Source: Candidatus Peregrinibacteria bacterium (lineage in GTDB: Bacteria > Patescibacteriota > Gracilibacteria > Peribacterales > Peribacteraceae). Taken from it: a stretch of DNA of 34,494 bases. Below are positions 4,144 to 33,887 of this stretch, one piece after another. The DNA is taken from assembly GCA_018648865.1 (NCBI GenBank), contig JABGQH010000007.1, positions 1-34,494 of the forward strand. Reading direction: 5' to 3'. Positions within the stretch are counted from its first letter, which is position 1. Every line of letters starts with the position of its first letter. The translations under genes were made by a program, and so were the position numbers. The notes beneath the pieces were generated by a model. It was not told where the DNA came from. It made no database searches and worked only from the letters and a program-made list of their open reading frames with translations.

Positions 4144-5691
4144 TTACCCTATGCTTCTACGTATTATTGCAGCTTCTATAATATCTTCTGTAATACGTTC
4201 TTTATCTATGCTGTCTTCCCTCATTCTATGGAAAATATTAGATGTTAGATTCCTATGGATCACATGATGTGGTTTCTTTGGTCCTAGTGGTTCACCTAGA
4301 TATTCTTCTATAGCTTTTAGATCTTTCTCTATTTCTTTAAACGTATCGCTAGTCTTTGCACCAATGTGTACGTTCTCGTAATTCAAATATTTACCTGCAT
4401 GCATTAGGTCATTACGCAGAGCTGGATAATATTTTTCTATTAAAGGAAGTAGCCCTTTCTCTGTTGCTTCTTTTAAACCTCTACCAGTAGAGATTAGTTC
4501 TGGTGGAATACCTTGAGAATATAAAGAGGCAGTAAACTTAATAGCTCTAGGTAGGGTTACATCCCCAACACCTCGGCTGTATCCAAATAAACCTATGTGA
4601 AGTAGTCGTTCCCTTCTACTTGGTACAAGTCCTGCAATTTGATTAATACTTTCTGCCAAAGATTCAATAGTGCTTTGCCAATGCTTGGTAAAGATTGCAC
4701 AGATTTCTCTAAGTCCTTGTATATCTGCTGCATCTACGTGTTGAACCTCTCTCTTTGGTGCCTCTTGTTTTATTAGTTTTATTGTTTTCTTCACATCCTC
4801 TAGAGGATAGTCATAACGGAACGCGGACTGGATTGAATATGTGCGTACCCCTGCGTATTGCTCCAAGAATGAATCTGTATACATTGGATTTACGCTTCCT
4901 CTAAATGGTAGAGAACCTGTTCCGATAACTGGGTACACAGGGTAGCCGAGTTCTTCACCAACTTCATAAGCAGAACTAAGCGCTGCTTTTATAGCTAGAA
5001 CTGCAGGAATAAGGCCAGAGTTAAGAGCAGGATCACTACGTGCTAGGAACAATCGGAATCCAGATGCCTCCAAACTCTCTTTGGTATGTTCCTGAGTTAG
5101 GAGTTTCCAATATGGTTCCAATATATTTCTAATATCAAACATGTTGTCTATGTCTTCTACTAGTGGAGTTACCCTAAATTCAGATAATAATTTTGTGTGG
5201 GCACCTTCTCCTCCATGGAAAGTTTGCCCATGTAATGAACAAACATTTTTAAATGCGTCACGAACAGTAGTCAGTTGGTCAGTAGATGTTGTAAGTGGTA
5301 AAAACATCTCGTGAACAGGTGAGCATGGCATTCCAATATCTTTAGAGAGATCAGAAAGAGACAGCATGTTCATAAATGCTCTAGCCATGTGATGCATTTG
5401 TTCACCACGAAAAGCTGGAATACGAAATGTTAGATTAAGTGTTTTACCTAATGGATGTGATTCAAAAAATTCTTTATCTAGTGAGTATGCTTTTTCTCCA
5501 ACTGCTTCATCTACGTACTTCCCTTCCCAGTCCCACATGTATTCATCTACTCCTAGATCCTTATACAAAAGGACTAATTCATTAATTTCATCTTGAGTAG
5601 AAATAAATGCACCGTCTTTCCACCATGGGGAAGATGCGTTGTCTGGATGTTGTGTGGCCATCGCGGCGGGTGGCCAATTAGTTTCAGTCAT
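4144..5691 (-). CDS. ppcA: Phosphoenolpyruvate carboxylase, archaeal type
   Basis: PEP carboxylase joins PEP and bicarbonate to give oxaloacetate and phosphate. The 515-residue length and sequence match the short archaeal-type family (PpcA), not the 900-residue bacterial type. Family landmarks are the N-terminal MATQHPDNA, the segment FRIPAFRGEQMHHMARAF, GQTFHGGEGAH, FRLFLARSDPALNSG and the Gly-rich GTGSLPFRGSVNP. The start at 5691 gives a short lead before MATQHPDNA; an internal start at that Met, ten residues later, is also possible. It is divergent from an aspartate-type aminotransferase across 60 bp, which suggests that oxaloacetate is made for aspartate synthesis. This enzyme type is known from archaea and a few bacteria such as Clostridium and Leuconostoc, so lateral transfer is plausible. 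Confidence 0.95.
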   Translation of the reverse strand: MTETNWPPAAMATQHPDNASSPWWKDGAFISTQDEINELVLLYKDLGVDEYMWDWEGKYVDEAVGEKAYSLDKEFFESHPLGKTLNLTFRIPAFRGEQMHHMARAFMNMLSLSDLSKDIGMPCSPVHEMFLPLTTSTDQLTTVRDAFKNVCSLHGQTFHGGEGAHTKLLSEFRVTPLVEDIDNMFDIRNILEPYWKLLTQEHTKESLEASGFRLFLARSDPALNSGLIPAVLAIKAALSSAYEVGEELGYPVYPVIGTGSLPFRGSVNPMYTDSFLEQYAGVRTYSIQSAFRYDYPLEDVKKTIKLIKQEAPKREVQHVDAADIQGLREICAIFTKHWQSTIESLAESINQIAGLVPSRRERLLHIGLFGYSRGVGDVTLPRAIKFTASLYSQGIPPELISTGRGLKEATEKGLLPLIEKYYPALRNDLMHAGKYLNYENVHIGAKTSDTFKEIEKDLKAIEEYLGEPLGPKKPHHVIHRNLTSNIFHRMREDSIDKERITEDIIEAAIIRRSIG

Positions 5692-11807: not shown

Positions 11808-12256
11808 TGGTGGAGATGCCGAGAATCGAACTCGGGTCCAACGTGTAGAAAACGTGCCAGTACTGTTATGACTGCTCTAATACATTCGACCTACAAGAGA
11901 GCAGACAAGAAATGGTCAAATGGGTTGGCGATAGATTTAAAAGTACAGTACGCCAGATGTACTTCTGCCTCGCTAAGTGACGCCTTTTCCTCGTAGCGAG
12001 AATAAAAGGAGAGACGTGTTCGTGCTAGGACGAACTTAGGCCATTACAGGCACAAGAGCAGGACTCAAACGAGCCATGACACCTTCTGCGATTGAATTGG
12101 CTTTGCTAACAAGATTGTTTGCAATTAAATTTTGCAACATGTGGGTAACGGGAACCGTTGCGATCCCGAACAGAAGCTATCCCAAACCAAATGCTTACGC
12201 ATTGATATAGGACATGTCGATTACTAGAAATCACGATGTCGAAGCCTGTCATCCCC
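11808..12256 (-). ncRNA. ssrA: Transfer-messenger RNA (tmRNA)
   Basis: tmRNA frees stalled ribosomes and adds a degradation tag. On the minus strand the 5' end reads GGGGATGACAGGCTTCGACA, and the 3' end closes with a T-arm (CCGAG, loop TTCGATT, CTCGG), then CATCTCC and ACCA. The two ends form a 7-bp acceptor stem with a G3-U70 pair, the alanine identity element. The CCA is encoded. The total is about 449 nt in one piece, longer than the 363 nt of E. coli. The tag frame starts at a GCA resume codon at 12122 and ends with TAA at 12036, followed directly by a hairpin (GTTCGT ... ACGAAC), as is usual for tmRNA. An ORF of 98 codons covering this gene on the same strand is a chance frame. Confidence 0.96.
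12036..12122 (-). other. tmRNA tag reading frame, 28 residues
   Basis: Reading from GCA at 12122 gives a tag that begins ANNLVSKANSIAEG and ends ARLSPALVPVMA, then TAA. The Ala-Asn opening is the common tag start. The length (28) is well above the usual 8-15 residues, and the tag ends PVMA rather than ALAA. A second frame (AKFNCKQSC from 12137) is less likely because it lacks a hydrophobic end and its stop is not next to the hairpin. Confidence 0.8.
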
Positions 12257-14229: not shown

Positions 14230-16050
14230 ATGCAACAAAGGCATGGCACCCTAATCGGGTGTACAGACAACATTGTAGAGGTAGAACTTTCTGCCGATGC
14301 AATGCTCGCCCAAGGCGAGATCGGGTATATAGAATTGCCCGACAAAGATGTGACTGTACAGGTCATGGCAGAGGTACTAGAGGTCAGGGAAAACTCTTGT
14401 GTTATGCAAGTGTTTGAACCGACCGAAGGTCTTTGCAATGGTTTGAAAGTCACGTTTAGCGGAGATCCGCTTTCCATTCAAGTGGGTCCGGGCATGCTCG
14501 GAACCGTTTACGATGGATTGCAGAACCCGCTAAAAGAACTGGCTCATCGCGATGGGTTTTTCCTAAAGCGAGGATCCAGAGTCGATCCGTTGGATTCGAC
14601 TAAAATGTGGGATTTCGTTCCTACTGCAAAAATTGGTGACACCGTTGCTGCGGGTCAGGTACTTGGTTGCGTTAAGGAGTTTCACTTCGAACACAAGATC
14701 ATGGTTCCTTTTGACTTAAGCGGCGACTGGGAAGTCATTTCGATCGAGTCGCAAGGGGAGTGCTGCGTATCCGATACCATTGCTGTCATTAAGAATGAAG
14801 ACGGCAAAGAGGTTCCGGTAACAATGGTGCAACGTATGGTGGTAAAAAAAGGAAACACCACGTACAGGCGTCGTTTGCCGATCTCTGACTATCTGCCGAC
14901 TGGCATGCGCATCATTGATGCACTTATACCAGTCCCGATAGGTGGTAGCGCATCTATCCCTGGGGCGTTTGGAACGGGTAAAACCGTTCTGCAGCACGCA
15001 ATTGCCAAGCATGCAAGCATTGATGTTGTCATTGTTTGTGCATGCGGCGAACGTGCAGGCGAAGTCGTGGAAACAATCAAAGAGTTCCCACACTTAGCTG
15101 ACCCGCAGACTGGCAGTAAATTGTCAGATCGAACGGTCATCATTTGCAACACATCGTCTATGCCAACCGCAGCGCGCGAGGCATCGGTGTTCGTTGCAAG
15201 CAGTCTTGCTGAGTACTATAGAAATATGGGACTCAATGTGCTTATTTTGGCGGATTCAACGTCACGATGGGCACAAGGAATGAGAGAAGCTGTATCAGCT
15301 CGTGGCCAGATTCCAGGTGCGCGGGGATTCCCTGCTGACCTAGAAATGCTGGTTGCTAGCTTTTATGCTCGATCAGGAAAAGTAGAAACCGCAAACGGCG
15401 ACACCGGATCAATTACGATCATCGGTACTGTTAGTCCGGCCGGTGGAGACTTTAGCGATCCTGTCGTTCAGGCGACTCTCCCTCAAAACCAAGCCTTTTG
15501 GGGACTTGATCAACCGCGTGCGGATTCCAAAAAGTATCCTGCAATCGATGTGCTGCAAAGCTGGTCGAAAATTGATGGCAGTATCCCGCAAGAAAAAGTT
15601 GTTCGTGTACTAGAACTTCTTCGGAAATCGACTGAAACTCAGGAGCTTATGGTCATAACAGGCGAAGATGGGATTGGAATGGATGCGTTCCTCAATCTAC
15701 TACTCGCTGAACTGTTTGACGGTGTGTTTCTGCAGCAAAACTCGTTCCACCCTGTGGATGCGAGCAGCCCAGCCGAAAGGCAGGAAAAACTTTTCGATTG
15801 GTTGTATACTTTGTGTTTCGATACGGAACTGGATTTCGATCCAGTCGTAGAGAAAGACGAAAACGACCAACCGCGGGTTGTGCAATCCGAAAAAGAAGTT
15901 GCACGCAAATGGGCCAATCTTCTTGCGCAAACTCTGCGCAGTTGGAACTTGGCAGAACAAGAAACCGAAGAAGAAGGAGGCCTGTGGGCAGAAGCCATAT
16001 CTATGGTTGAGTCAGCAGTTTCTCTTGAAAAAGAAGGGATCGCAGTATGA
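14230..16050 (+). CDS. atpA: V/A-type ATPase catalytic subunit A
   Basis: The catalytic subunit of the peripheral V1/A1 sector, which hydrolyses or makes ATP. The length of 606 residues fits the family. The Walker A loop GAFGTGKT is at 245-252 (the usual form is GPFGSGKT), followed by CGERAGEVVE with the catalytic Glu, the long non-homologous insert typical of A subunits (about 110-200), Walker B-like NVLILADSTSRWAQ, and ARGFPADLEM. The start has GGAAGGAG 7 nt upstream. The stop overlaps the atpB start (ATGA), so the two are translationally coupled. It is the first gene of a seven-gene operon on the plus strand. Confidence 0.97.
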   Translation: MQQRHGTLIGCTDNIVEVELSADAMLAQGEIGYIELPDKDVTVQVMAEVLEVRENSCVMQVFEPTEGLCNGLKVTFSGDPLSIQVGPGMLGTVYDGLQNPLKELAHRDGFFLKRGSRVDPLDSTKMWDFVPTAKIGDTVAAGQVLGCVKEFHFEHKIMVPFDLSGDWEVISIESQGECCVSDTIAVIKNEDGKEVPVTMVQRMVVKKGNTTYRRRLPISDYLPTGMRIIDALIPVPIGGSASIPGAFGTGKTVLQHAIAKHASIDVVIVCACGERAGEVVETIKEFPHLADPQTGSKLSDRTVIICNTSSMPTAAREASVFVASSLAEYYRNMGLNVLILADSTSRWAQGMREAVSARGQIPGARGFPADLEMLVASFYARSGKVETANGDTGSITIIGTVSPAGGDFSDPVVQATLPQNQAFWGLDQPRADSKKYPAIDVLQSWSKIDGSIPQEKVVRVLELLRKSTETQELMVITGEDGIGMDAFLNLLLAELFDGVFLQQNSFHPVDASSPAERQEKLFDWLYTLCFDTELDFDPVVEKDENDQPRVVQSEKEVARKWANLLAQTLRSWNLAEQETEEEGGLWAEAISMVESAVSLEKEGIAV

Positions 16051-17393
16051 CATCGAACAACTCTGTAAGAATTTGCAATCCCGATAATGTTTCAGGGCTG
16101 AAAGGAAATATCTTGCGCATCGAAGCGCCTGGTATTAATCCTTTCGTAAACGAGTTGTGCGAGATTAGCTGGGGTGACGACAGTTTGTCTTTTGGTCGCG
16201 TTATCGCGTTCAAGAGGTCCGAAGTTGTCATTCAAGTCTATAACGGCACGCTCGGCGTTGCTCGCAATGCCACTGTGAAGTTCTTGGGTCATGCTCAGAA
16301 ACTCACGTTCAGTACGGAATCATTTGGTCGGGTGTTTTCTGGTGGCGGTGTGCCACTAGATGGATTACCTGTTCTGAAAGGAACTTCGGTAGACATTGGA
16401 ACGCCGTCGGTCAATCCCATCAAACGAGAGATGCCGTCTCAATTTATTGAAACCGGCATCCCTATGATCGATATTTTCAATTCCCTAGTTGGCTCGCAAA
16501 AGATTCCTATCTTTGCAGCCCAAGGGGAGCCTTATAACGATCTTCTGTTGCGCATTTCGTCTATGACGAGCGCAGATGTTGTCGTACTTGGTTGCATGGG
16601 AATGCCACCTGCTGAGTACGATAGAATCACTGCGGAGATGCAAACCAGTGGGGCGTCCACAAAAACTATTGTTTTCGCTCACACTACTGCAGACCCCGCG
16701 TCGGAATGCCTTATGGTACCCGACATGGTTCTGGCAACGGCGGAAAACTTTGCGTTAAAGGGCAAGAACGTGTTGGTCATGCTTACCGACATGACGTCTT
16801 ATGCCGACGCACTCAAGGCTCGCGAAAGCGACCTAGAGAAGATACCTGCAGAACGCGGGTATCCTGGAAACCTATACTCACAACTTGCACGGCTATATGA
16901 AAAAGCGTGTGATTTTGTGGGCGAGGGTGTTATTACCATTATTGGCGTCTCAACAATGCCAGATGGCGATGTAACACACCCCGTTCCCGATAACACGGGA
17001 TACATCACAGAGGGCCAATTCTTTTTGAAAGATGCCCGAATTGATCCGTTCCGTTCACTGTCCCGCTTAAAGCAGCAGGTCAATGATGATACTCGTGACG
17101 ATCATCGATCTTTGATGAATGCTATGGTCCAGCTATACGCTGAGGCACAAGGCGCTCGTGAAAAAGCTGCGATGGGCCACGATCTTACAAATCGTGACAA
17201 TTCGTTACTTGAATTCGCGTCGGATTTCGAAGTAGGGCTGATGGACCTTTCGGTTTCATTGTCTCTAAACGATGCGCTGGATACTTGTTGGACGATTCTG
17301 AAACATCATTTCTCACGAGAGGATGTTCCGATCGACCGGCGGGTACTGGATAATCATTGGCCACAAGAAGCTGTTGCGACAACAGCTAAATAA
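16047..17393 (+). CDS. atpB: V/A-type ATPase regulatory subunit B
   Basis: The non-catalytic subunit that alternates with A in the V1 hexamer. The 448-residue length is normal. It lacks a Walker A loop (PIFAAQGEPYND stands at that place, where other B subunits have GSGLPHN-like sequence). It keeps family landmarks such as RRGYPG-type ERGYPGNLYSQLARLYEKA, the stretch GVITIIGVSTMPDGDVTHPVPD, TGYITEGQF and SRLKQQVNDDTRDDH. It overlaps atpA by 4 nt and is followed after 15 nt by the subunit E gene. Confidence 0.96.
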   Translation: MTSNNSVRICNPDNVSGLKGNILRIEAPGINPFVNELCEISWGDDSLSFGRVIAFKRSEVVIQVYNGTLGVARNATVKFLGHAQKLTFSTESFGRVFSGGGVPLDGLPVLKGTSVDIGTPSVNPIKREMPSQFIETGIPMIDIFNSLVGSQKIPIFAAQGEPYNDLLLRISSMTSADVVVLGCMGMPPAEYDRITAEMQTSGASTKTIVFAHTTADPASECLMVPDMVLATAENFALKGKNVLVMLTDMTSYADALKARESDLEKIPAERGYPGNLYSQLARLYEKACDFVGEGVITIIGVSTMPDGDVTHPVPDNTGYITEGQFFLKDARIDPFRSLSRLKQQVNDDTRDDHRSLMNAMVQLYAEAQGAREKAAMGHDLTNRDNSLLEFASDFEVGLMDLSVSLSLNDALDTCWTILKHHFSREDVPIDRRVLDNHWPQEAVATTAK

Positions 17394-17408
17394 ATGGAGT
17401 AGTTGACT

Positions 17409-18008
17409 ATGAATGAACCGAATGAACCGGTCGTTAGTGCAGATGAATTTTTGCAAAATGTACACGACCGTACAATTGATCCCGCAAAACGGGAAGCAGA
17501 GCAATTACTTGCAGACGCCAAGGAAAGTGTTCGGTTTATAACCGAGCAGGCCAAGGCGGAAGCTGAGAGAATTGTAGAGGCAGCCAAAGAAAAAGAAGCT
17601 AGAGCGCGCGATCGAATTACTACTGGGCGTAAGCAAGCCGTTATTACGGCATGCGCACAGGTAATGAGTGCTTTGGAGCAGACTTTGCATCCGGAACTTT
17701 CAAAACTGGTGAAAGCCAGTGCGATATCTTCGGAACTTCTGAATGGCGTCCTCTCCACTCTTGTTGATCAAAAGATCGCGGGAAAAGAACTTCTAGTTTC
17801 AATCTCGCAATCAGAAGCCGATTCTTTGCAAGGAGAATTAGTTCGCAAGATTGGCGATACGGTTGTGAAAATGACTGTAGACAATCGCTTGAAAGATATC
17901 GCTGTGATCACATCGTCAGATGGAGAAATCCACCTCGCAATTGATTCAGACGAACTCACACGCGTGATCGAATCAGCGATTCCTCTTCCGAAGATCTTGG
18001 AGGAGTAA
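17409..18008 (+). CDS. atpE: V/A-type ATPase subunit E (peripheral stalk)
   Basis: A 199-residue protein of the peripheral stalk. The N-terminal half is a long charged helix (about 20-75: AKREAEQLLADAKESVRF, then AKAEAERIVEAAKEKEARA) and the C-terminal half is a compact domain ending SAIPLPKILEE, the known layout of subunit E. The ATG at 17409 was chosen because GGAG lies 9 nt upstream; a TTG six bases earlier is a poorer choice. The opening segment (VVSADEFLQNV) resembles that of the next gene (TVSTDEFLQRC), an odd shared motif. Confidence 0.85.
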   Translation: MNEPNEPVVSADEFLQNVHDRTIDPAKREAEQLLADAKESVRFITEQAKAEAERIVEAAKEKEARARDRITTGRKQAVITACAQVMSALEQTLHPELSKLVKASAISSELLNGVLSTLVDQKIAGKELLVSISQSEADSLQGELVRKIGDTVVKMTVDNRLKDIAVITSSDGEIHLAIDSDELTRVIESAIPLPKILEE

Positions 18009-18010
18009 CT

Positions 18011-18538
18011 ATGGCGTACGAATACCTCGCTGCGAACCTTCAGGTTTTGGCGTGGGGCGTGCAGCCAACAGTTTCAACTGATGAATTTTTGCAACGATGC
18101 GAAAATAGAATGTCAGCAGGGGATTTTCAGAATCTATGTGATCTCCTGCAGCAGTTTTCATCTCTCCTAACAGGGGAATGTCTGCAAACCTCGTATTCGT
18201 GGATGCAACAACTGAGTAATTTCGCGAGCATAATCCGAAAGGAAGTCGGCGAACTCAGAACTGCAAAACGAAGCGGACATGCGCACAAGAGTACTGTTCT
18301 GCCTCTTGAAGTCACAGAAGCAGATACTCCGTTGCATGCACAGCAGGCATTGTTGAAATGTTGGTGGGATGCATTATATATGTTTGAACATCATGAATGG
18401 TGGGCAAAGCTTCCACACTTTGTGTATTTCGGATGTAGGCTATGCATTCTAGAGCGAATGAATTCCTTCGATCATAATCAAGGAGAAGAGGTCTTTACTG
18501 CCCTCCAAACCTTAAACATTGAAGGAGGATCTTTATGA
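18011..18538 (+). CDS. DUF2764-like ATPase operon protein
   Basis: A 175-residue protein between subunits E and D. In Chlamydia, Bacteroidetes and spirochaete V-ATPase operons this neighbourhood is filled by a DUF2764 protein, and the size, Trp-rich C-half (KCWWDALYMFEHHEWWAK) and helical make-up fit. I could not check the family formally. It probably replaces or supplements the missing subunit C as the link between V1 and the membrane sector. The SD is GGAGGAG. Its stop overlaps the start of the subunit D gene (ATGA). Confidence 0.6.
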   Translation: MAYEYLAANLQVLAWGVQPTVSTDEFLQRCENRMSAGDFQNLCDLLQQFSSLLTGECLQTSYSWMQQLSNFASIIRKEVGELRTAKRSGHAHKSTVLPLEVTEADTPLHAQQALLKCWWDALYMFEHHEWWAKLPHFVYFGCRLCILERMNSFDHNQGEEVFTALQTLNIEGGSL

Positions 18539-19152
18539 GCTCCACTGCCCAACTGCCGAAGAACCGAGCAACTCTTAAGTTGTTACGATCAAAGGTTTCT
18601 ACATCAGAGGCTCAAGTTGCTACGTTGGATGCACAACGATTGCTTTTTACTGCGGAGGCCAAAAGGATCCAAGGTGAAATGCAAAAAGTGTCAAGCCAGC
18701 TAGCTGCTCACTCACAATTTGTTGATCAGTGGGTCGGGGTTTTCTCTGACACTTCTATCGACTTACAAGAGTGGGTAACTCCTGTAGAAATCATCACTTC
18801 CTGCACTCATGTAGGAAAAGTCGTAATCACCACTTTGGAAGAAGTCATTTTTCCAGAGGAGCTTCCGGATCCATTCTCAACTCCCTTGTGGGTAGACGAT
18901 GGGGTCGAAGCAGTTCGTACCACTGCAAGTCTTCGGATTCGTCTGAAACTCTTGAAGAAAAACTTTGACGCAGTTGAAGTGGAAAGGAAACGTGTTACAA
19001 GGCTGTACAATTATTTGGATAAGATATTGATTCCTGCACTTAGTGTGCAAATCCAAAAAACGTTCATCGCCTTGGACGACGCCCAACGTGAAGAAAGCAC
19101 GTTGGCGAAAGTGGCCAGTGACCTCCTAAAACGAAAGGTAATTGCAGCATGA
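18535..19152 (+). CDS. atpD: V/A-type ATPase subunit D (central stalk)
   Basis: The rotor shaft of the enzyme. The 205-residue length is normal. The N-terminus LPKNRATLKLLRSKV and the C-terminal segment VERKRVTRLYNYLDKILIPAL match the two long helices of the D family, with a globular tip between them. It has a strong SD (GAAGGAGG) and overlaps both neighbours by 4 nt, so its synthesis is tightly coupled to theirs. Confidence 0.93.
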   Translation: MSSTAQLPKNRATLKLLRSKVSTSEAQVATLDAQRLLFTAEAKRIQGEMQKVSSQLAAHSQFVDQWVGVFSDTSIDLQEWVTPVEIITSCTHVGKVVITTLEEVIFPEELPDPFSTPLWVDDGVEAVRTTASLRIRLKLLKKNFDAVEVERKRVTRLYNYLDKILIPALSVQIQKTFIALDDAQREESTLAKVASDLLKRKVIAA

Positions 19153-20987
19153 TCATACCCATGAAACATGTTACGGTTTTTTGCCTTCCGTCTAAGCGGG
19201 AGGCAACTCTGGAATCACTCAGAAAGCTAGGCATTTTGCATGTGCATCCTAGGCACAAAGGTTTTTCTGCCGAAACGCAGGAGATTGAAGACAAAATTGC
19301 CTTTGCAGAAGATGCGTTGAAAGCGATGCCATCTAGTGTGGCGCCGCATGAACATGCGTCCACTGACGAATCGCCAGAGACAGTTGTAAACGAAGTGTTG
19401 CGAACCAACTCAGAACTAGCAGGAGTTTCACAAGGCATAGAAGAGAAATCTTCTCTTGTTGGGTGGTACAAGCGCTGGGGAAAAGTGGATCGCAATACTG
19501 TAAATGCAATAGATAAAGAGAAAGGTATATGCGTATACTTCTTGCAGATTCCAACAAAGGAACTCGTAGAGTTCCTTGAAGGAGACTTGAGCAGTACTGT
19601 GCATACCAAGTGGGTCGGCGAAAATTCTAACGGCACCACTCTTTGTTGCATTACCGGAATCGATTTAGATCTAAACATACCAATCGGTTGGATCGATTCC
19701 ATTCCAAGCGAAAGCTTGGATGTCTTGCAAGATGAAATCGAGTCTCTTGAAGACAGAAGGGCTGATCTAGAATCAGACCTTGTGCGGTTATCGCATTCTA
19801 GAGCAGAGGTTGAAGGGTACATCCTGAGGCTACAAAACCTGCTCAAATTCCAGGTAGCCTATGAGGGGATGACGCGAGACGAAACTTGCGACATTTCAGC
19901 ATTTGCTGGATACCTTCCAGAAGAAGATGTTCCATCCGTTTTGACTCATGCAAATGAGAATGAATACGCGATTGTAGTTGAGGACGTAGATACTGACGAC
20001 AGTGATGTCCCAACGCTTTCGCGAGTTCCTAAATGGATTCGTCCCATCGAGTCATTGTTTTCCTTTTTCGGGATTCGTCCTGGATACAAAGAGTTAGACA
20101 GTCATTGGGACGCGATGATCATTATGCCAATACTTGTAGCGTTGCTTATCGGCGACGCGGGGTATGGGGCTTTGTATCTGATCGGAACATTGATCGCTAG
20201 AAGACAGTTTTCCGACATGAAACCAGAACCATTCCGATTGGGCTACATCCTTTCGATATCCTGTATCGTATGGGGTGCACTCACAGGGAACTGGTTTGGA
20301 TCAGAGGCTATTTCTGGATTGCCACTACTTCGCGACGTTGTATTCCAGCCAATTGCCACGCAGTTCGATCTTTCGAACCAAGAGGCAGTAAAAGCAGGAA
20401 TCTTCATGTCCATAAAGATCTCATTCTTTGTTGGATTGCTCCATCTAGGAGTTTCGCGAATACGTGCTGCAGTCCACGCGGTCTTTAGAGGAGACACTTA
20501 CCGTGCGATTACACAGTGCGGCTGGTGCGTTGTAGTAATTGGGAACTTCTTGCTTCTGCAAGCAATGTTTTTCCAGTTGCCAACTATCCCGGCAACACTC
20601 GCATGTATACTCACGGGCGGTGCGATCATTTGCTTCTTCGGAAGCACAGAAAAAAACATAGCAAAGCGTATTGCCTTTTCTTCGGTTGGGTTCTGTATGG
20701 ATCTGGTCGGAGTTTTCGGAGATATGCTTAGCTACATGAGGTTGTTCGCAGTGGGATTCACTGCTTTCATCCTCGCGATGCTATCCAACATGCTGCTCGT
20801 GCAGGATACTGGAATAGTATTAACTATACTGGGGGTCGCAATAGCGCTCTTCGGTCACACTTTGAATTTAGTATTGGGAATACTGGCTATTTTAGTCCAC
20901 GGTTTCCGTTTGCACCTGTTAGAAGGTAGCAAACATGCCGAGATTGAAAGCGCCGGAGTCCCTTATCAACCACTTAACGGAGTTTAA
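19149..20987 (+). CDS. atpI: V/A-type ATPase subunit I (a-subunit)
   Basis: The membrane stator that carries ions past the c-ring. It has 612 residues: a cytosolic N-half with coiled coil (about 180-230: VLQDEIESLEDRRADLESDL) and a C-half with about seven or eight membrane helices (from about 320). The essential Arg of the ion path is seen as R531 in DMLSYMRLFAVGF. The loop GDAGYG near helix 1 and the ending GILAILVHGFRLHLLE are typical of the family. It overlaps subunit D by 4 nt, and subunit K follows 4 nt after its stop. Confidence 0.95.
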   Translation: MIIPMKHVTVFCLPSKREATLESLRKLGILHVHPRHKGFSAETQEIEDKIAFAEDALKAMPSSVAPHEHASTDESPETVVNEVLRTNSELAGVSQGIEEKSSLVGWYKRWGKVDRNTVNAIDKEKGICVYFLQIPTKELVEFLEGDLSSTVHTKWVGENSNGTTLCCITGIDLDLNIPIGWIDSIPSESLDVLQDEIESLEDRRADLESDLVRLSHSRAEVEGYILRLQNLLKFQVAYEGMTRDETCDISAFAGYLPEEDVPSVLTHANENEYAIVVEDVDTDDSDVPTLSRVPKWIRPIESLFSFFGIRPGYKELDSHWDAMIIMPILVALLIGDAGYGALYLIGTLIARRQFSDMKPEPFRLGYILSISCIVWGALTGNWFGSEAISGLPLLRDVVFQPIATQFDLSNQEAVKAGIFMSIKISFFVGLLHLGVSRIRAAVHAVFRGDTYRAITQCGWCVVVIGNFLLLQAMFFQLPTIPATLACILTGGAIICFFGSTEKNIAKRIAFSSVGFCMDLVGVFGDMLSYMRLFAVGFTAFILAMLSNMLLVQDTGIVLTILGVAIALFGHTLNLVLGILAILVHGFRLHLLEGSKHAEIESAGVPYQPLNGV

Positions 20988-20991
20988 TCTT

Positions 20992-21435
20992 ATGACCGCA
21001 TTAGCATTCGGAATTCTATTGATGGCCGTTGCTGGAATTGGTTCTGCAATTGGAATGTCAAAGGCAGCTAACGCTGCATTAGGCGTAAAAGCAGAGAAGG
21101 GCAAAGAATGCCCCAATCTTGCGATTTACGTACTCATGCCATTTAGTCAGACCCTCTACGGCCTGGTATTGCTTGCAATGGCAGTATTCCTATTCAGCGA
21201 CAAGTTTCCAACGGATCCTGTTGGGATTACCATTACCATGATCTCGGCGGTATTCGCCGGCGCATGTATTGGCACATCCGCATTAACACAAGGAGCTGTG
21301 GGAGCACGTGCCTGCGACGCGATCGGCAAGACTGGACACGGAAAAGGCGAGGCAATCATGTTCATGGGAACGATCGAAACGGTCGCTCTGTTCATGATGG
21401 TCATGTTCATTGTCGGGATGTTCATTCTCCTATAG
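20992..21435 (+). CDS. atpK: V/A-type ATPase subunit K (c-ring), predicted Na+ type
   Basis: The proteolipid of the rotor ring: 147 residues, two hairpins, four membrane helices. The ATG at 20992 was preferred to one at 20935 because it lies after the subunit I stop and begins directly at helix 1 (MTALAFGILLMA). Only the second hairpin keeps the ion carboxylate, E129 in GTIETVALF. Around it the full Na+-site set of Enterococcus hirae NtpK appears to be kept: S52 (for T64), Q53 (Q65) and Y56 (Y68) in PFSQTLYG, and Q100 (Q110) in LTQGAVG. This predicts Na+ coupling with one site per four helices. Confidence 0.93.
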   Translation: MTALAFGILLMAVAGIGSAIGMSKAANAALGVKAEKGKECPNLAIYVLMPFSQTLYGLVLLAMAVFLFSDKFPTDPVGITITMISAVFAGACIGTSALTQGAVGARACDAIGKTGHGKGEAIMFMGTIETVALFMMVMFIVGMFILL

Positions 21436-28164: not shown

Positions 28165-30105
28165 ATGGATACTTGTAAGTATTTTTCTCTATCGGGCAGA
28201 TGCAAAAATGTAAATAAATTGACTTTTCAGTCTAGGAAAGGGGCAATGTTAGTTGAGGTAATTATTGCACTCGGACTTGGTATAATTTTTGCAGTATCTA
28301 TTGTTAAAATGGGGATTGGTACTATGAGCTCTGTAGAGCAAAGTAGAAATAGATTAGTAGCTTCTCATTATGCGACAGAAGGAATAGAGGCAGCTAGAGT
28401 AATTTCTAGACAAGGTTTTGAGCTATTAACAGATGGTAATCATGGCGTGTCTCACGATGGAGAGAATTATTATTTTTCTGGTGCAGGTGATACTTATTCT
28501 AAATACACTAGAACAGTATTAATAGATCCTGCATACAGAGATGAGAATGAAAGTATAATACTCGATCCTGCTGATCCAGAAAGCATTCTGGCAGCTGGTG
28601 GGTATTTAGATACGCAAGCAAAGATTGTTACATCCAGAATAACGTGGGGTATTGGATTGCAGCAACGTTCCATAGAATTGCAAACAGTATTATCTAAGTG
28701 GTTTGTTTATCCATTACAACCATTTTCAGTATCTACAGGAACTATTTTATTTGGAACAGAATGGTCTACAGGAACAGGAATAACACTAGCTCATCAACCT
28801 ACATATAATCCGCCAGCAGTTTTGGGTTCAGTTATAGTCCCATCTAATTGGACAGTTTCTAGAATAATTGTAGATAATGAAAGAAACAGAGTTTATGCAA
28901 TAACTAATCAGGGATATCTACTTACATTTAATGCAGAAAATTCATTTTCGGGGGAATTACCAATTATTAATTCATTAAATATTACAGGAGTACTAAGAGA
29001 TGCAGATTTATATGGAGATTATTTGTACATAGCTTCTGAAGCAGATAATGGAGAAGTTGTAGTAGTAAATGTAGAGTCTTTATCTATTGTTAGAACATGG
29101 GATCTAGCTGGCAGTTATAATGCGAATAGTATTTTAGTATCCACCGATGGACAGTCTGTATTTGTAGGACGTGAAAAAAATAGTGGAGATGAGCTTTATA
29201 TTTTAGGCTCCAATCCAGGCAACCCATTATCAGTCACAAGCCAATTCGAAATAGGCGGAGATATAAATATTATTGAGCCATATTCAGATGATTGGCTTTT
29301 CCTTGGAACAGATTTAACAAATGATGAAGTAGATATTTTTCAAATTTCTACTTCTACAATAACAAATTGTAATGTGCAAGGAGCTCAGCTGGCTTCGGAT
29401 ATTGAGATCGTAAATGAAACTTTAGCTATCAGTAGAAGAAGTGGTGTAGAGGACACACTGACTCTTTTCCAAATAGATTCTAATTCACCTTCTTCTTGTA
29501 CAGCATTCGATACACCACTTTGGGAAAATGGGATAACAGGAACAGACACAAATAGTATTGCCTTAGATCTATTTGATAATCGTGTTTATAGTGTAGTAGA
29601 AGGGGAATCATTACATTTCACCTATAGCCAGATAGATCCATCTACTGTCGATAAACACACACTAGATGATGGTTCGGAGTGTAGTCATATAACTGGAAAT
29701 AGTTCTTTGCTTTATGCAGCCTGTACTGAACCTGTGTCTGGAACTGACACTATATATATTTTGGATGGTGCTGGCACAGATAGAAATGGATATGTGTATA
29801 GGGGAGAATTTTTAATGGATCCTGTAGATGGAGGAACATTTGTAAAATGGAGAGGTATTTCTTGGACAGGAGTAGACGGTAATATAAAAATGCTAATACG
29901 AACAGCTCCAGATGAGTTGGGGCTAGAAAGTGCGACTTGGGTTGGTCCTACTGGAGAGGAAGATTCTTATTATATTGATTCAAATACAGTAATTGTTACT
30001 GACCCATTATCAGGAGGTGATAGATGGTTACAAGTAAAGCTAATTTTATCTGGCAATGGTTGGTCTTCCCCTACAATTGAATCTGTTTCAACATGGTACG
30101 AATAA
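28165..30105 (+). CDS. GspI/PilV-like minor pilin fused to a beta-propeller
   Basis: 646 residues, against 120-200 for an ordinary minor pilin. The prepilin leader ends at G26, followed by AMLVEVIIALGLGIIF with E at +5. A pilin-like part (to about 190) contains LVASHYATEGIEAARVISRQGFELL, typical of PilV/GspI. Then about 300 residues of repeats (RVYAITNQGYLLTF, YLYIASEADNGEVVVVNVE, VFVGREKNSGDELYIL, WLFLGTDLTNDEVDIF) look like blades of a beta-propeller of the LVIVD/YVTN kind. The last 100 residues (GGTFVKWRGISWTG, then DRWLQVKLILSGNGWSSPTI) resemble a beta-sandwich. It is the first gene of the I-J-K operon and overlaps the next by 13 nt. The ATG at 28165 has no SD. Confidence 0.88.
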   Translation: MDTCKYFSLSGRCKNVNKLTFQSRKGAMLVEVIIALGLGIIFAVSIVKMGIGTMSSVEQSRNRLVASHYATEGIEAARVISRQGFELLTDGNHGVSHDGENYYFSGAGDTYSKYTRTVLIDPAYRDENESIILDPADPESILAAGGYLDTQAKIVTSRITWGIGLQQRSIELQTVLSKWFVYPLQPFSVSTGTILFGTEWSTGTGITLAHQPTYNPPAVLGSVIVPSNWTVSRIIVDNERNRVYAITNQGYLLTFNAENSFSGELPIINSLNITGVLRDADLYGDYLYIASEADNGEVVVVNVESLSIVRTWDLAGSYNANSILVSTDGQSVFVGREKNSGDELYILGSNPGNPLSVTSQFEIGGDINIIEPYSDDWLFLGTDLTNDEVDIFQISTSTITNCNVQGAQLASDIEIVNETLAISRRSGVEDTLTLFQIDSNSPSSCTAFDTPLWENGITGTDTNSIALDLFDNRVYSVVEGESLHFTYSQIDPSTVDKHTLDDGSECSHITGNSSLLYAACTEPVSGTDTIYILDGAGTDRNGYVYRGEFLMDPVDGGTFVKWRGISWTGVDGNIKMLIRTAPDELGLESATWVGPTGEEDSYYIDSNTVIVTDPLSGGDRWLQVKLILSGNGWSSPTIESVSTWYE

Positions 30106-33100
30106 TTAAGTTCCACAAGAATAGGCCCGGTTTCAATCTAATAGAGATGATGCTATATACGCTTCTAACTGGAGCAATAATGGCTGGGCTAATGCAATCA
30201 ATGCTTATGGTTTTAGAGCATGATGAAGTTACGTCTTCTAGGGAAGCTGTTCAACAGGAGCTTAGAGTTGTTTTAGACAGGATAGTACATGATATAAATG
30301 AGGCTTCATCTGTAGATGAAGGTGTTCTGACAATATTAAATGACAACGAAGGATCAATAGCTTTGGAATTTAAAGAAGCTGAAAGAAATCCAACAGCATA
30401 TAAAATGGAGGATTCAGCTATAAAAGTATGGATAGGAGCAGGACCATGGGCAAGGATTACAAGTGAAGATGTAGAGATTGAAAGATTACTTTTCTCTAAA
30501 AAAACAGATTCCATTTTTGCAACAGCAATAAGCGTGTCGATAATTGGATCGGATACATTTAGTGATAGCGGAAATATAAGTAAAAAGTCAGTGACAGTTA
30601 AAGATATGGCATCAGTAAGAGAAAAATTTTCAGCAATTGATCCTAGATCTATATTCGGTCAGGAATATTTTAGTAGCGAAGCAATTATTGGTATTCCAAA
30701 TTCATCGGTGAGTTCTAGCTCTTCGTCTAGTGCAATTTCATCATCATCATCTTACTATTCCTCATCTGCGGCTGTATCAGTATGTGGAAATGGAGAAATT
30801 GAATTAGGTGAAGAATGTGACGATGGGAATGTTGTAAATGGCGATTCATGTTCATCTGACTGTTTAAGGGAAACAGTGACTGTAGATTCACAATATTGTC
30901 CTGCAAATGCTGCTTGTGATAACCATCCAGGTCCATCAGGAGGATATTGTCCGCCGGTTTCACTTGATTGTGCTACTCCAAATGATGATTGGGATTGTAA
31001 TTGGGAATGCCCGCATGATCCATTGGATGCAGGGGCATATGATCGCTGTATTTATGCATATCAATGTGCATGTGATAAAGGGGTAGGGCAAAATATCGAT
31101 GTAACTGACTACATGAATTGTTACGATAGCCACAGGGCTAGTTATCCAGGTACAAATCCTTCTGTTAGTTATTCTGAATGTAGTAGTTTTTGTGTGCCAG
31201 ATTCTTTATGCGGAAATGGTTCTTTAGACGGAGGAGAAGAATGTGATACAGGTGGCAATTCAGCAACATGTGATAGTGATTGCACTGCACCTTCTTGTGG
31301 GGACGGGTTAACTAATCCTCTTGCAGGAGAGGATTGTGATGATGCAAATATTATCGCTGGAGATGGATGTGATCTATGTGAACAAGAAGGATATTGTTGC
31401 ACTTATGGTACGTATACTTGTGCAGTAGGTGTTAGCGGAGACTGTACAGCAGGCGATCAAGAATTCTTTGGAGATGGAGGAGGATCTAATTCTTCTTCCT
31501 CTTATTCAGATTCCTCTTATTCAAATTCTTCTTATCCAGCTGGGTCTAATGATTGTGATTATTATTGCAGTGCCTGGTGCGGGAATGGATACATAGATGC
31601 TGGCGAAGAATGTGATGACGGAAACTATAATTACGGCGATGGGTGTTCTTACGATTGTACTCTTGAGTACTGCTGCGATACTCAGTCCCATTCTTGTGCA
31701 CTGTGGACTTCAGAATGTGATTATTATGATACGTACGATAATCAATCTGATTGTGATAATTCTTGTGCCTCATGTGGAGACGGGGTTACAGCTGGTTACG
31801 AAGAATGTGATGATGGGGGAAGTAATTCTGACTCAACTCCAGATGCATGTAGAACATCATGTGAAAATGCAGACTGTGGAGACAGTGTTGTAGATACAGG
31901 AGAATCCTGTGACACAGGTGGTAATTCAGCAACCTGTGATAGTGATTGCACTGCACCTGTTTGTGGAGATGGTATAAGAAACTATCCTGCAGGAGAGGAA
32001 TGTGACGATGGAAATGGTGATTCTGGTGATGGATGTTATTTATGCCAAAATGAAGGATATTGTTGCGAACTAGGTGTATACACTTGCGATTTTGGAATTA
32101 GTGGAGATTGCACAGCCGGTAATGAGGAATTCTATGAAGGAGAAGTATATTACTGTGCTTCTTATTGTACTGCTTGGTGTGGGAATGGTTATCTAGATGC
32201 TGGTGAAGAATGTGACGATGGAAACTATGATGATTGGGATGAATGCTCTTCTGATTGCAAAAATAATGTTTATTGTTGTGAAGATAATTATGGGTGCTGG
32301 GAAGATCCAACACCTCCTGATTATTGTGATAATGGATATTCTGATTTAGCGACTTGTAACTCTAGTTGTTCTATATGTGGTGATGGAATAAAGGCTGAAG
32401 GTGAAGAATGTGACGATGGAAACTATGATGATGGAGATGGTTGCTCCTATTATTGCTCTTTGGAATATTGCTGTGATGAACTTTCTCATTCATGCTCTGC
32501 AGGAGTAAGTGGATGTGATTATGAAAATATATATTCAACCCCTACATCTTGTGACATAGGTTGTGCATTTTGTGGAGATGGGGTTGTAGCTGGTTACGAA
32601 GAATGTGATGACGGAGGAAGTAATTCTGACTCAGTTCAAGATGCATGTAGAACATCATGTGAAAATGCAGACTGTGGAGATAGTGTTGTAGATACAGGTG
32701 AAACCTGCGATACAGGGGGTAATTCAGTAACCTGTGACAATGATTGTACAACTCCAGCTTGTGGCGATGGTGTAAGGAATTCTCCTGCAGGAGAGGAATG
32801 TGACGATGGAAACACTACAGACGGTGACGGATGTACTAGCTTATGCGAAGATGAAGGATACTGTCTTACTTATGGCGCATATACCTGCACAGCCAGTGTA
32901 AGTGATGATTGCATTGATGCTAACGAAGAATTTTTCGAAGATTATTGGGATTGCGAGTATGAAAGTTACGCATGGTGCGGCAATGGTTATACTGATACCG
33001 GTGCTGGAGAAGAATGCGATGATGGGAATTGGTACAATAATGATGGCTGTTCTAATTCATGTACTTTTGAATATTGTTGTAGAACTAATGGAACATGTGA

Positions 33101-33887
33101 TGCTGCTCTGCCAAGCACATGTGATAGCCCAGGTGAAATTTATTATTCTGGATACGATGCTGAAAATACTTGTACAACTGTATGTAATACGTGTGATGAT
33201 GGGATAGTAGATGCAGGAGAAGAGTGTGATGATGGAAATACTTCCAACACAGATGCATGTCTGAATACATGTATCTCTGCTACTTGTGGTGACGGATTTG
33301 TTAGAAGCGGCTCAGAAGAATGCGATGATGGGAATTCATACAACACAGATGCATGTCTGAATACATGTATCCCCGCAACATGTGGTGATGGGTTTGTTAG
33401 AAGCGGCTCAGAAGAGTGTGATGATGGGAATACTGTAGATGGTGATGGATGCTCTGATTGTACTTTGGATGTGTACTGTTGCGATGAAGCTTCTGCAAGT
33501 TGCCCTGGATCAAAAGTTGATCGTAGTACTTGTGCTAGTGGAATATATAATACAGATTCCACTATATGTGAATCACAGTGTGGGATTGTAGTCTCTGCAG
33601 ACTTCTGTCCTACTAATTCATGTTTTGGATATCCGGGGAACAGTAATTATTGTAGTAACCCAGTTAATTGTGGTGTTGTTGGACAAGCAGGATGGGATTG
33701 TAATTGGGACTGCAATGGTCTTGGTGCTTTAGATGATGGAAATTATGCGCGATGTATTGGAGCGTACAAGTGTGCTTGTATGATGGGAGGTGGCGATAGA
33801 AATGTTGCTGATTTCTTAAATTGTTACTCTTCTGGAAGTAATGATATGAGCTTATTGGAATCTTGTTTATCTGCTAATTGCACATAG
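30093..33887 (+). CDS. GspJ/PilW-like minor pilin fused to a giant Cys-rich repeat array
   Basis: 1264 residues, where GspJ/PilW proteins have 200-350. The leader MVRIIKFHKNRPG is cut after G13; FNLIEMMLYTLLTGAIMAG follows, then a GspJ-like domain (REAVQQELRVVLDRIVHDIN) to about 200. A Ser-rich linker (about 203-229) leads to roughly sixteen repeats of the type CGNGxxxxGEECDDGNxxxGDGCSxxC, the DUF4215/Myxococcus cysteine-rich repeat. Two copies of another Cys-rich domain (WDCNWxC, then RCIxAYxCAC) flank the array at about 262-370 and 1167-1264. It is probably exported to the pilus tip with many disulfides. It overlaps the previous gene and is followed after 33 bp by the third minor pilin. Confidence 0.92.
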   Translation: MVRIIKFHKNRPGFNLIEMMLYTLLTGAIMAGLMQSMLMVLEHDEVTSSREAVQQELRVVLDRIVHDINEASSVDEGVLTILNDNEGSIALEFKEAERNPTAYKMEDSAIKVWIGAGPWARITSEDVEIERLLFSKKTDSIFATAISVSIIGSDTFSDSGNISKKSVTVKDMASVREKFSAIDPRSIFGQEYFSSEAIIGIPNSSVSSSSSSSAISSSSSYYSSSAAVSVCGNGEIELGEECDDGNVVNGDSCSSDCLRETVTVDSQYCPANAACDNHPGPSGGYCPPVSLDCATPNDDWDCNWECPHDPLDAGAYDRCIYAYQCACDKGVGQNIDVTDYMNCYDSHRASYPGTNPSVSYSECSSFCVPDSLCGNGSLDGGEECDTGGNSATCDSDCTAPSCGDGLTNPLAGEDCDDANIIAGDGCDLCEQEGYCCTYGTYTCAVGVSGDCTAGDQEFFGDGGGSNSSSSYSDSSYSNSSYPAGSNDCDYYCSAWCGNGYIDAGEECDDGNYNYGDGCSYDCTLEYCCDTQSHSCALWTSECDYYDTYDNQSDCDNSCASCGDGVTAGYEECDDGGSNSDSTPDACRTSCENADCGDSVVDTGESCDTGGNSATCDSDCTAPVCGDGIRNYPAGEECDDGNGDSGDGCYLCQNEGYCCELGVYTCDFGISGDCTAGNEEFYEGEVYYCASYCTAWCGNGYLDAGEECDDGNYDDWDECSSDCKNNVYCCEDNYGCWEDPTPPDYCDNGYSDLATCNSSCSICGDGIKAEGEECDDGNYDDGDGCSYYCSLEYCCDELSHSCSAGVSGCDYENIYSTPTSCDIGCAFCGDGVVAGYEECDDGGSNSDSVQDACRTSCENADCGDSVVDTGETCDTGGNSVTCDNDCTTPACGDGVRNSPAGEECDDGNTTDGDGCTSLCEDEGYCLTYGAYTCTASVSDDCIDANEEFFEDYWDCEYESYAWCGNGYTDTGAGEECDDGNWYNNDGCSNSCTFEYCCRTNGTCDAALPSTCDSPGEIYYSGYDAENTCTTVCNTCDDGIVDAGEECDDGNTSNTDACLNTCISATCGDGFVRSGSEECDDGNSYNTDACLNTCIPATCGDGFVRSGSEECDDGNTVDGDGCSDCTLDVYCCDEASASCPGSKVDRSTCASGIYNTDSTICESQCGIVVSADFCPTNSCFGYPGNSNYCSNPVNCGVVGQAGWDCNWDCNGLGALDDGNYARCIGAYKCACMMGGGDRNVADFLNCYSSGSNDMSLLESCLSANCT
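30783..33470 (+). repeat. In-gene array of DUF4215-type repeats with higher-order periodicity
   Basis: The coding repeat (core GAATGTGATGATGGAAA and variants) occurs about sixteen times. Above this, a multi-repeat module starting at the CDTGGNS motif recurs at 31251, 31917 and 32715, giving long near-identical blocks such as 31796-31960 against 32590-32755. Near the end a 96-nt unit is tandemly duplicated (phase points 33225, 33321 and 33417). This shows growth by segmental duplication. Confidence 0.85.

Follow-up and report, generated by a model that had tools for sequence, protein, structure and literature searches.

In model bacteria, proteins tagged by tmRNA are mainly degraded by ClpXP. 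The tag of Mycoplasma is longer than most, with around 27 residues, and ends in FA. In Mycoplasma and Mesoplasma the extended tag is read by Lon (Gur and Sauer 2008; Ge and Karzai 2009, as related in passages of PMC8138137 and PMC11986505). Among 97,179 tmRNAs the commonest tag length is 10 residues (PMC11915505), and the known range goes from 8 to 35 residues (review, PMC8012679). On tag length, the part of the 2025 tmRNA database article consulted (PMC11915505) deals only with this overall commonest length and with very short tags, and in a literature search no report was found of ClpX loss or of a long-tag pattern in the phylum to which the genome described here belongs.

The tmRNA gene and its resume codon

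The DNA analysed (the window, 34,494 nucleotides in full) comes from a Candidatus Peregrinibacteria bacterium and carries an ssrA gene at positions 11808-12256 of the minus strand. ARAGORN and Infernal with the Rfam family RF00023 placed it identically, as a one-piece tmRNA of standard form, 449 nt long and with an encoded CCA end, in agreement with the length of about 449 nt originally proposed. The RF00023 match covers the whole model (1-374 of 374) with 78.7 bits against a gathering cut-off of 47 (E 4e-29), and it is the single tmRNA over the cut-off in this genome, which also has a gene for SmpB (G000:C9:251332-251748, E 8e-41). In a genome of the same genus (75% complete) no full tmRNA match was found. 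Elsewhere in the window there are a phosphoenolpyruvate carboxylase of the PEPcase_2 (archaeal) type (4144-5691, minus strand), an apparent V/A-type ATPase operon (14230-21435, plus strand), whose first gene has ATP-synthase alpha/beta domains according to Pfam and whose other subunits were recognized by eye, and a 1264-aa protein (30093-33887, plus strand) whose pilin-like N-terminal segment, also recognized by eye, precedes nine or more Cys-rich DUF4215 repeats.

The structure was studied on an alignment of 18 tmRNAs of the same family, counting the acceptor stem, the T arm, both helices of the pseudoknot PK1 and the hairpin after the stop codon. Across these helices 98.0% of the cells pair, and changes on both sides were detected at 11 pairs, compared with 3.6 in shuffles and 2-4 in slid controls. 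The 5' strand of the acceptor stem (12250-12256, minus strand) pairs with 11812-11818, a 3' strand followed by CCA; its seven pairs are kept in all 18 relatives, and in every one of them the third is a GU. Such a G3-U pair is typical of tRNA-Ala-like domains. PK1 (12134-12168, minus strand) is located upstream of the resume codon and is formed by CGGGA (12168-12164) with TCCCG (12153-12149) and by GCAAC (12161-12157) with GTTGC (12138-12134), and its two helices have 98.9% of their cells paired in the 18 relatives, with compensatory changes. By every feature tested, including a conserved in-frame tag with a stop, the gene belongs to the tmRNA family, and its sequence and structure predict that this Peribacteria/Peregrinibacteria bacterium makes a functional tmRNA in one piece.

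The length of this RNA is due to an insertion of around 38 nt between its 5' end and PK1 (roughly 12190-12229, minus strand), seen as a gap in the alignment and predicted to form part of a stem-loop. It is missing from all 17 aligned relatives and also from the nearest relative found, L223 (Ca. Peregrinibacteria), being specific to the window's genome among the sequences compared.

The tag frame (12036-12122, minus strand; RNA positions 135-221) starts at the resume codon GCA (12122-12120) and encodes the 28 residues ANNLVSKANSIAEGVMARLSPALVPVMA, followed by TAA, as ARAGORN called it. Directly 3' of this stop there is a hairpin, GTTCGT...ACGAAC (12018-12035, minus strand), also obtained by fold prediction, in which five of the six pairs show double changes among the relatives, in such a way that the helix noticed in the original prediction is real. 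In a weight matrix of resume sites trained on 113 other tmRNAs, with that of the window excluded, the GCA at 12122 scores 14.2, above the median of the training set (11.8), while the next-best site in this RNA reaches 4.8.

The possibility that the frame was miscalled, and that the actual tag is another, shorter one, was also considered, having in mind that ARAGORN miscalled the frame in several relatives (L017, L029, L035, L130, L194 and L204, all of them corrected with the resume-site matrix; two unclear tags, L092 and L214, were excluded from the tag counts). The best-defined candidate was the frame giving AKFNCKQSC, which the original prediction had named as its alternative. The upstream GCA of this frame is overlapped by GTTGC, the inner 3' strand of PK1, in a helix with double-sided changes at three of its five pairs, and for this reason translation is very unlikely to resume there; this GCA also scores lower in the matrix, and the frame yields unrelated peptides in the relatives. 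The covarying, conserved pseudoknot thus fixes the GCA at 12122 as the resume codon, as the proposed covariance-model check was intended to settle, and AKFNCKQSC was rejected. Together with the synonymous conservation of the 28-residue frame and with the stops that interrupt the other two frames in L223, described below, this makes a miscalled frame hardly credible.

Conservation of the tag and selection on its coding sequence

An open frame of 28 codons is by itself unsurprising by chance, and its significance comes from the conservation of the frame. The tag of L223 is ANSLVSKANAIAEGVLARLSSPVLAFA. Its first 20 codons share 46 of 60 bases with those of the window, and eight of the 11 changed codons are synonymous; both other frames of L223 are interrupted by stops. 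The C-terminal end was aligned less exactly, and it differs between both tags (PVMA in the window, LAFA in L223). The alignment of tags across relatives therefore bears out the conservation of the frame that had been anticipated but not that of the literal VMA end.

Further members of the family (Candidatus Peribacteria/Peregrinibacteria) were obtained by scanning GTDB contigs with a DNA pattern, and three of them match loci of the genomes already compared, which puts the window in this lineage; a scan of the genome contigs with a degenerate tag pattern gave 0 matches and was uninformative. To the window's family belong 18 tags, all of them with 24-31 residues, and the 33 tags of its class have 21-31 residues, in such a way that the idea of a tag unique to the window's genome was rejected. 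The tag of the window is inside the known range of lengths, and the description "unusually long" holds in comparison with bacteria at large but not within the lineage, where such a length is normal.

To study selection, long tags were compared in 16 independent pairs, each from within one family and mostly from other classes of the phylum. Of the single changes in the middle of the tags (codons 3 to -9), 33 were synonymous and 17 were nonsynonymous, when 28.7% of synonymous changes were expected (p = 5e-8), and in the whole tag the same pairs gave 61 and 29, respectively. The frames +1 and +2 of the same DNA showed no synonymous excess. These data support that the long tags are real coding sequences under purifying selection beyond the C-terminus. 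The amphipathicity of the middle segment at 100 degrees is modest (mean z 0.64, s.e. 0.14), and the signal at 180 degrees is weaker.

Loss of ClpX and the tags of the phylum

In the 40 relatives examined, neither the zinc domain of ClpX, which gave matches in 10 control bacteria, nor a match to the full ClpX model over its cut-off was found. Across the phylum 192 genomes were sampled, and ClpX was over the cut-off in three and missing in 189, while tmRNA and SmpB are nearly universal. Many of these genomes are MAGs, so single absences are weak, but the absence of ClpX in the phylum is strong because it is repeated over 189 genomes. The three positive genomes are all the sampled members of one small class, and their tags (AETTPLAIAA, ADNQSLRALPLAA and ADNTGLRALPLAA) are of the short classical type, with 10-13 residues and an IAA or LAA end. 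Since these genomes form a single small class, the association between ClpX and the type of tag rests on one evolutionary contrast.

In a combined set of 149 ClpX-less genomes from 84 families, tag length goes from 9 to 32 residues, with a median of 22 and quartiles of 20 and 26. The final residue is Ala in 143 of the 149 tags, almost all have F, A, L, V, Y, M or I in the penultimate position, and 104 have a Pro at positions -4 to -6, so the usual end is hydrophobic-Ala, often as Pro-Ala-hydrophobic-Ala (P-A/V-hydrophobic-A). The LAA end was found in only two. The window's tag, ending in VMA, departs from the LAA type, as had been noted from its ALVPVMA end, and what is conserved of this end is its hydrophobic-Ala class. 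In around 11 of the 84 families the tags have 13 residues or fewer, showing that the loss of ClpX does not require a long tag. These short tags also end mostly in hydrophobic-Ala, and for this reason the altered end is a more general feature than length, which varies more.

Candidate proteases and comparison with known systems

Profile searches of the window's genome detected ClpP, present also in 39 of the 40 relatives, an FtsH of 619 aa, and an ATPase of 872 aa with a Clp_N domain, two AAA domains and an IGF loop conserved in the relatives. This last protein, which reaches no NCBIfam equivalog cut-off, is called ClpC here for its architecture and its IGF loop. ClpX was not detected in the window's genome, and neither was Lon at a cut-off of E 1e-30; a weak Lon_C match corresponded to a YifB Mg-chelatase-like ATPase. 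Lon was also rejected as the cause of tag length, with medians of 21 and 22 residues in Lon-positive and Lon-negative genomes, respectively (p = 0.32). Another Clp-like ATPase with a double AAA module, of 814 aa (G000:C15:35104-37548; L082:1605-4049), has no IGF loop and shows apparent hydrophobic N-terminal segments, so a membrane-anchored Clp is possible; proteins of around 800 aa bearing a Clp D2 domain recur in the relatives. Within the ClpP matches of three genomes of the same class (G032, G034 and G036) there are 2, 11 and 1 in-frame TGA codons, a pattern that agrees with reassignment of TGA in part of the class, and the ClpP frame of the window's genome has none.

Because ClpX and Lon are missing, the reading that we favour, and consider fairly probable, is that of a functional tmRNA with a long tag normal for its lineage, most likely read by ClpC-ClpP and/or FtsH. 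The tmRNA and SmpB would enter the stalled ribosome, translation would resume at the GCA at 12122, and (A)ANNLVSKANSIAEGVMARLSPALVPVMA would be appended to the stalled protein. The tag would then be read by the remaining AAA+ proteases, which would recognize the hydrophobic-Ala end and engage the conserved middle as a longer tail. In this scheme the tmRNA-SmpB pathway is the established portion. The data show the gene, its resume codon, the conserved frame, the selection on long tags and the gene content; tagging, degradation and the identity of the reading protease are what we infer. The matching protease preference supposed in the original prediction gains indirect support from the missing ClpX.

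With respect to which of the two proteases is the reader, about equal weight is given to FtsH and ClpCP, and both may act. FtsH as the main reader, instead of ClpCP, is plausible at somewhat less than an even chance, the tag being then an FtsH-type C-degron with a nonpolar hydrophobic-Ala end and a tail whose length would let a weak unfoldase engage it. A genome of the same class rated as 100% complete (G038), where ClpP, ClpX and Lon were not detected, keeps a tag of 30 residues and a clear FtsH, which argues for FtsH and against ClpCP, although an assembly gap could explain why its ClpP is missing, and its tag, with an acidic start and a VAA end, is not a typical one. The sequence LAFKAPSAVLA, listed as the FtsH degron of E. 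coli LpxC in a table of PMC8138137, scores 10.9 on a matrix of tag ends, above all 369 cellular C-termini tested, whereas the E. coli ssrA tag scores 2.7; this likeness is partly one of composition, since 5.6% of end-fixed shuffles score as high. The FtsH relative YME1L degrades an extended ssrA tag of 20 residues faster than one of 11 residues, but it also engages tags of 10 residues (PMC5095350). The main role of ClpCP, through the pore or the N-domain of ClpC and possibly with an unknown adaptor, we put just a little under even. The ClpC found here bears the ClpP-docking IGF loop, the distribution of ClpP given above agrees with it, and ssrA-tagged proteins are substrates of E. coli ClpAP (PMC8012679); against this, no ssrA-tag activity is known for any ClpC of the phylum.

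It was also considered that the tag could have no role in degradation, having been lengthened by drift after the loss of ClpX, with ribosome release alone being of relevance. The variation of length between families (9-32 residues), some of them with short tags, would fit this explanation, but the purifying selection in the middle of the long tags disfavours it, as do the near-invariant final Ala and the strong compositional pattern of the end, and we regard it as improbable. The persistence of tmRNA and SmpB where ClpX is missing raises the question of which protease clears the rescued proteins and of whether the tag co-evolved with it, a question that a defined peptide and two or three recombinant proteases would allow to be addressed directly, and tags of this kind could serve as orthogonal degrons in synthetic biology.

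Compared with the standard tmRNA of RF00023, that of the window shares the tRNA-Ala-like domain with G3-U and CCA, PK1, the GCA resume codon, the stop-terminated tag and the presence of SmpB, whereas it differs in a tag of 28 residues instead of the commonest 10, in an end that is not LAA and in the extra 38 nt or so upstream of PK1. The LpxC degron is similar in its nonpolar end with Pro and hydrophobic-Ala and in its matrix score, a likeness that is suggestive only, and it differs in being the natural C-terminus of a protein and not a tmRNA tag. With the Mycoplasma case there are in common an extended tag in a genome without ClpX and an FA end that fits the hydrophobic-Ala class; in contrast, the present genome has ClpP and ClpC and showed no Lon, the two tags are unrelated in sequence, and the candidate readers are ClpC-ClpP and FtsH where the reader in Mycoplasma is Lon. 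Approaching an even chance, in our estimate, is a wider reading in which ClpX was lost early in the candidate phyla radiation and the tag was rebuilt throughout the phylum into a longer, conserved degron with a Pro-Ala-hydrophobic-Ala end, read by FtsH and/or ClpCP. If this is true, trans-translation would have been re-targeted a second time, independently of its re-targeting to Lon in Mycoplasma.
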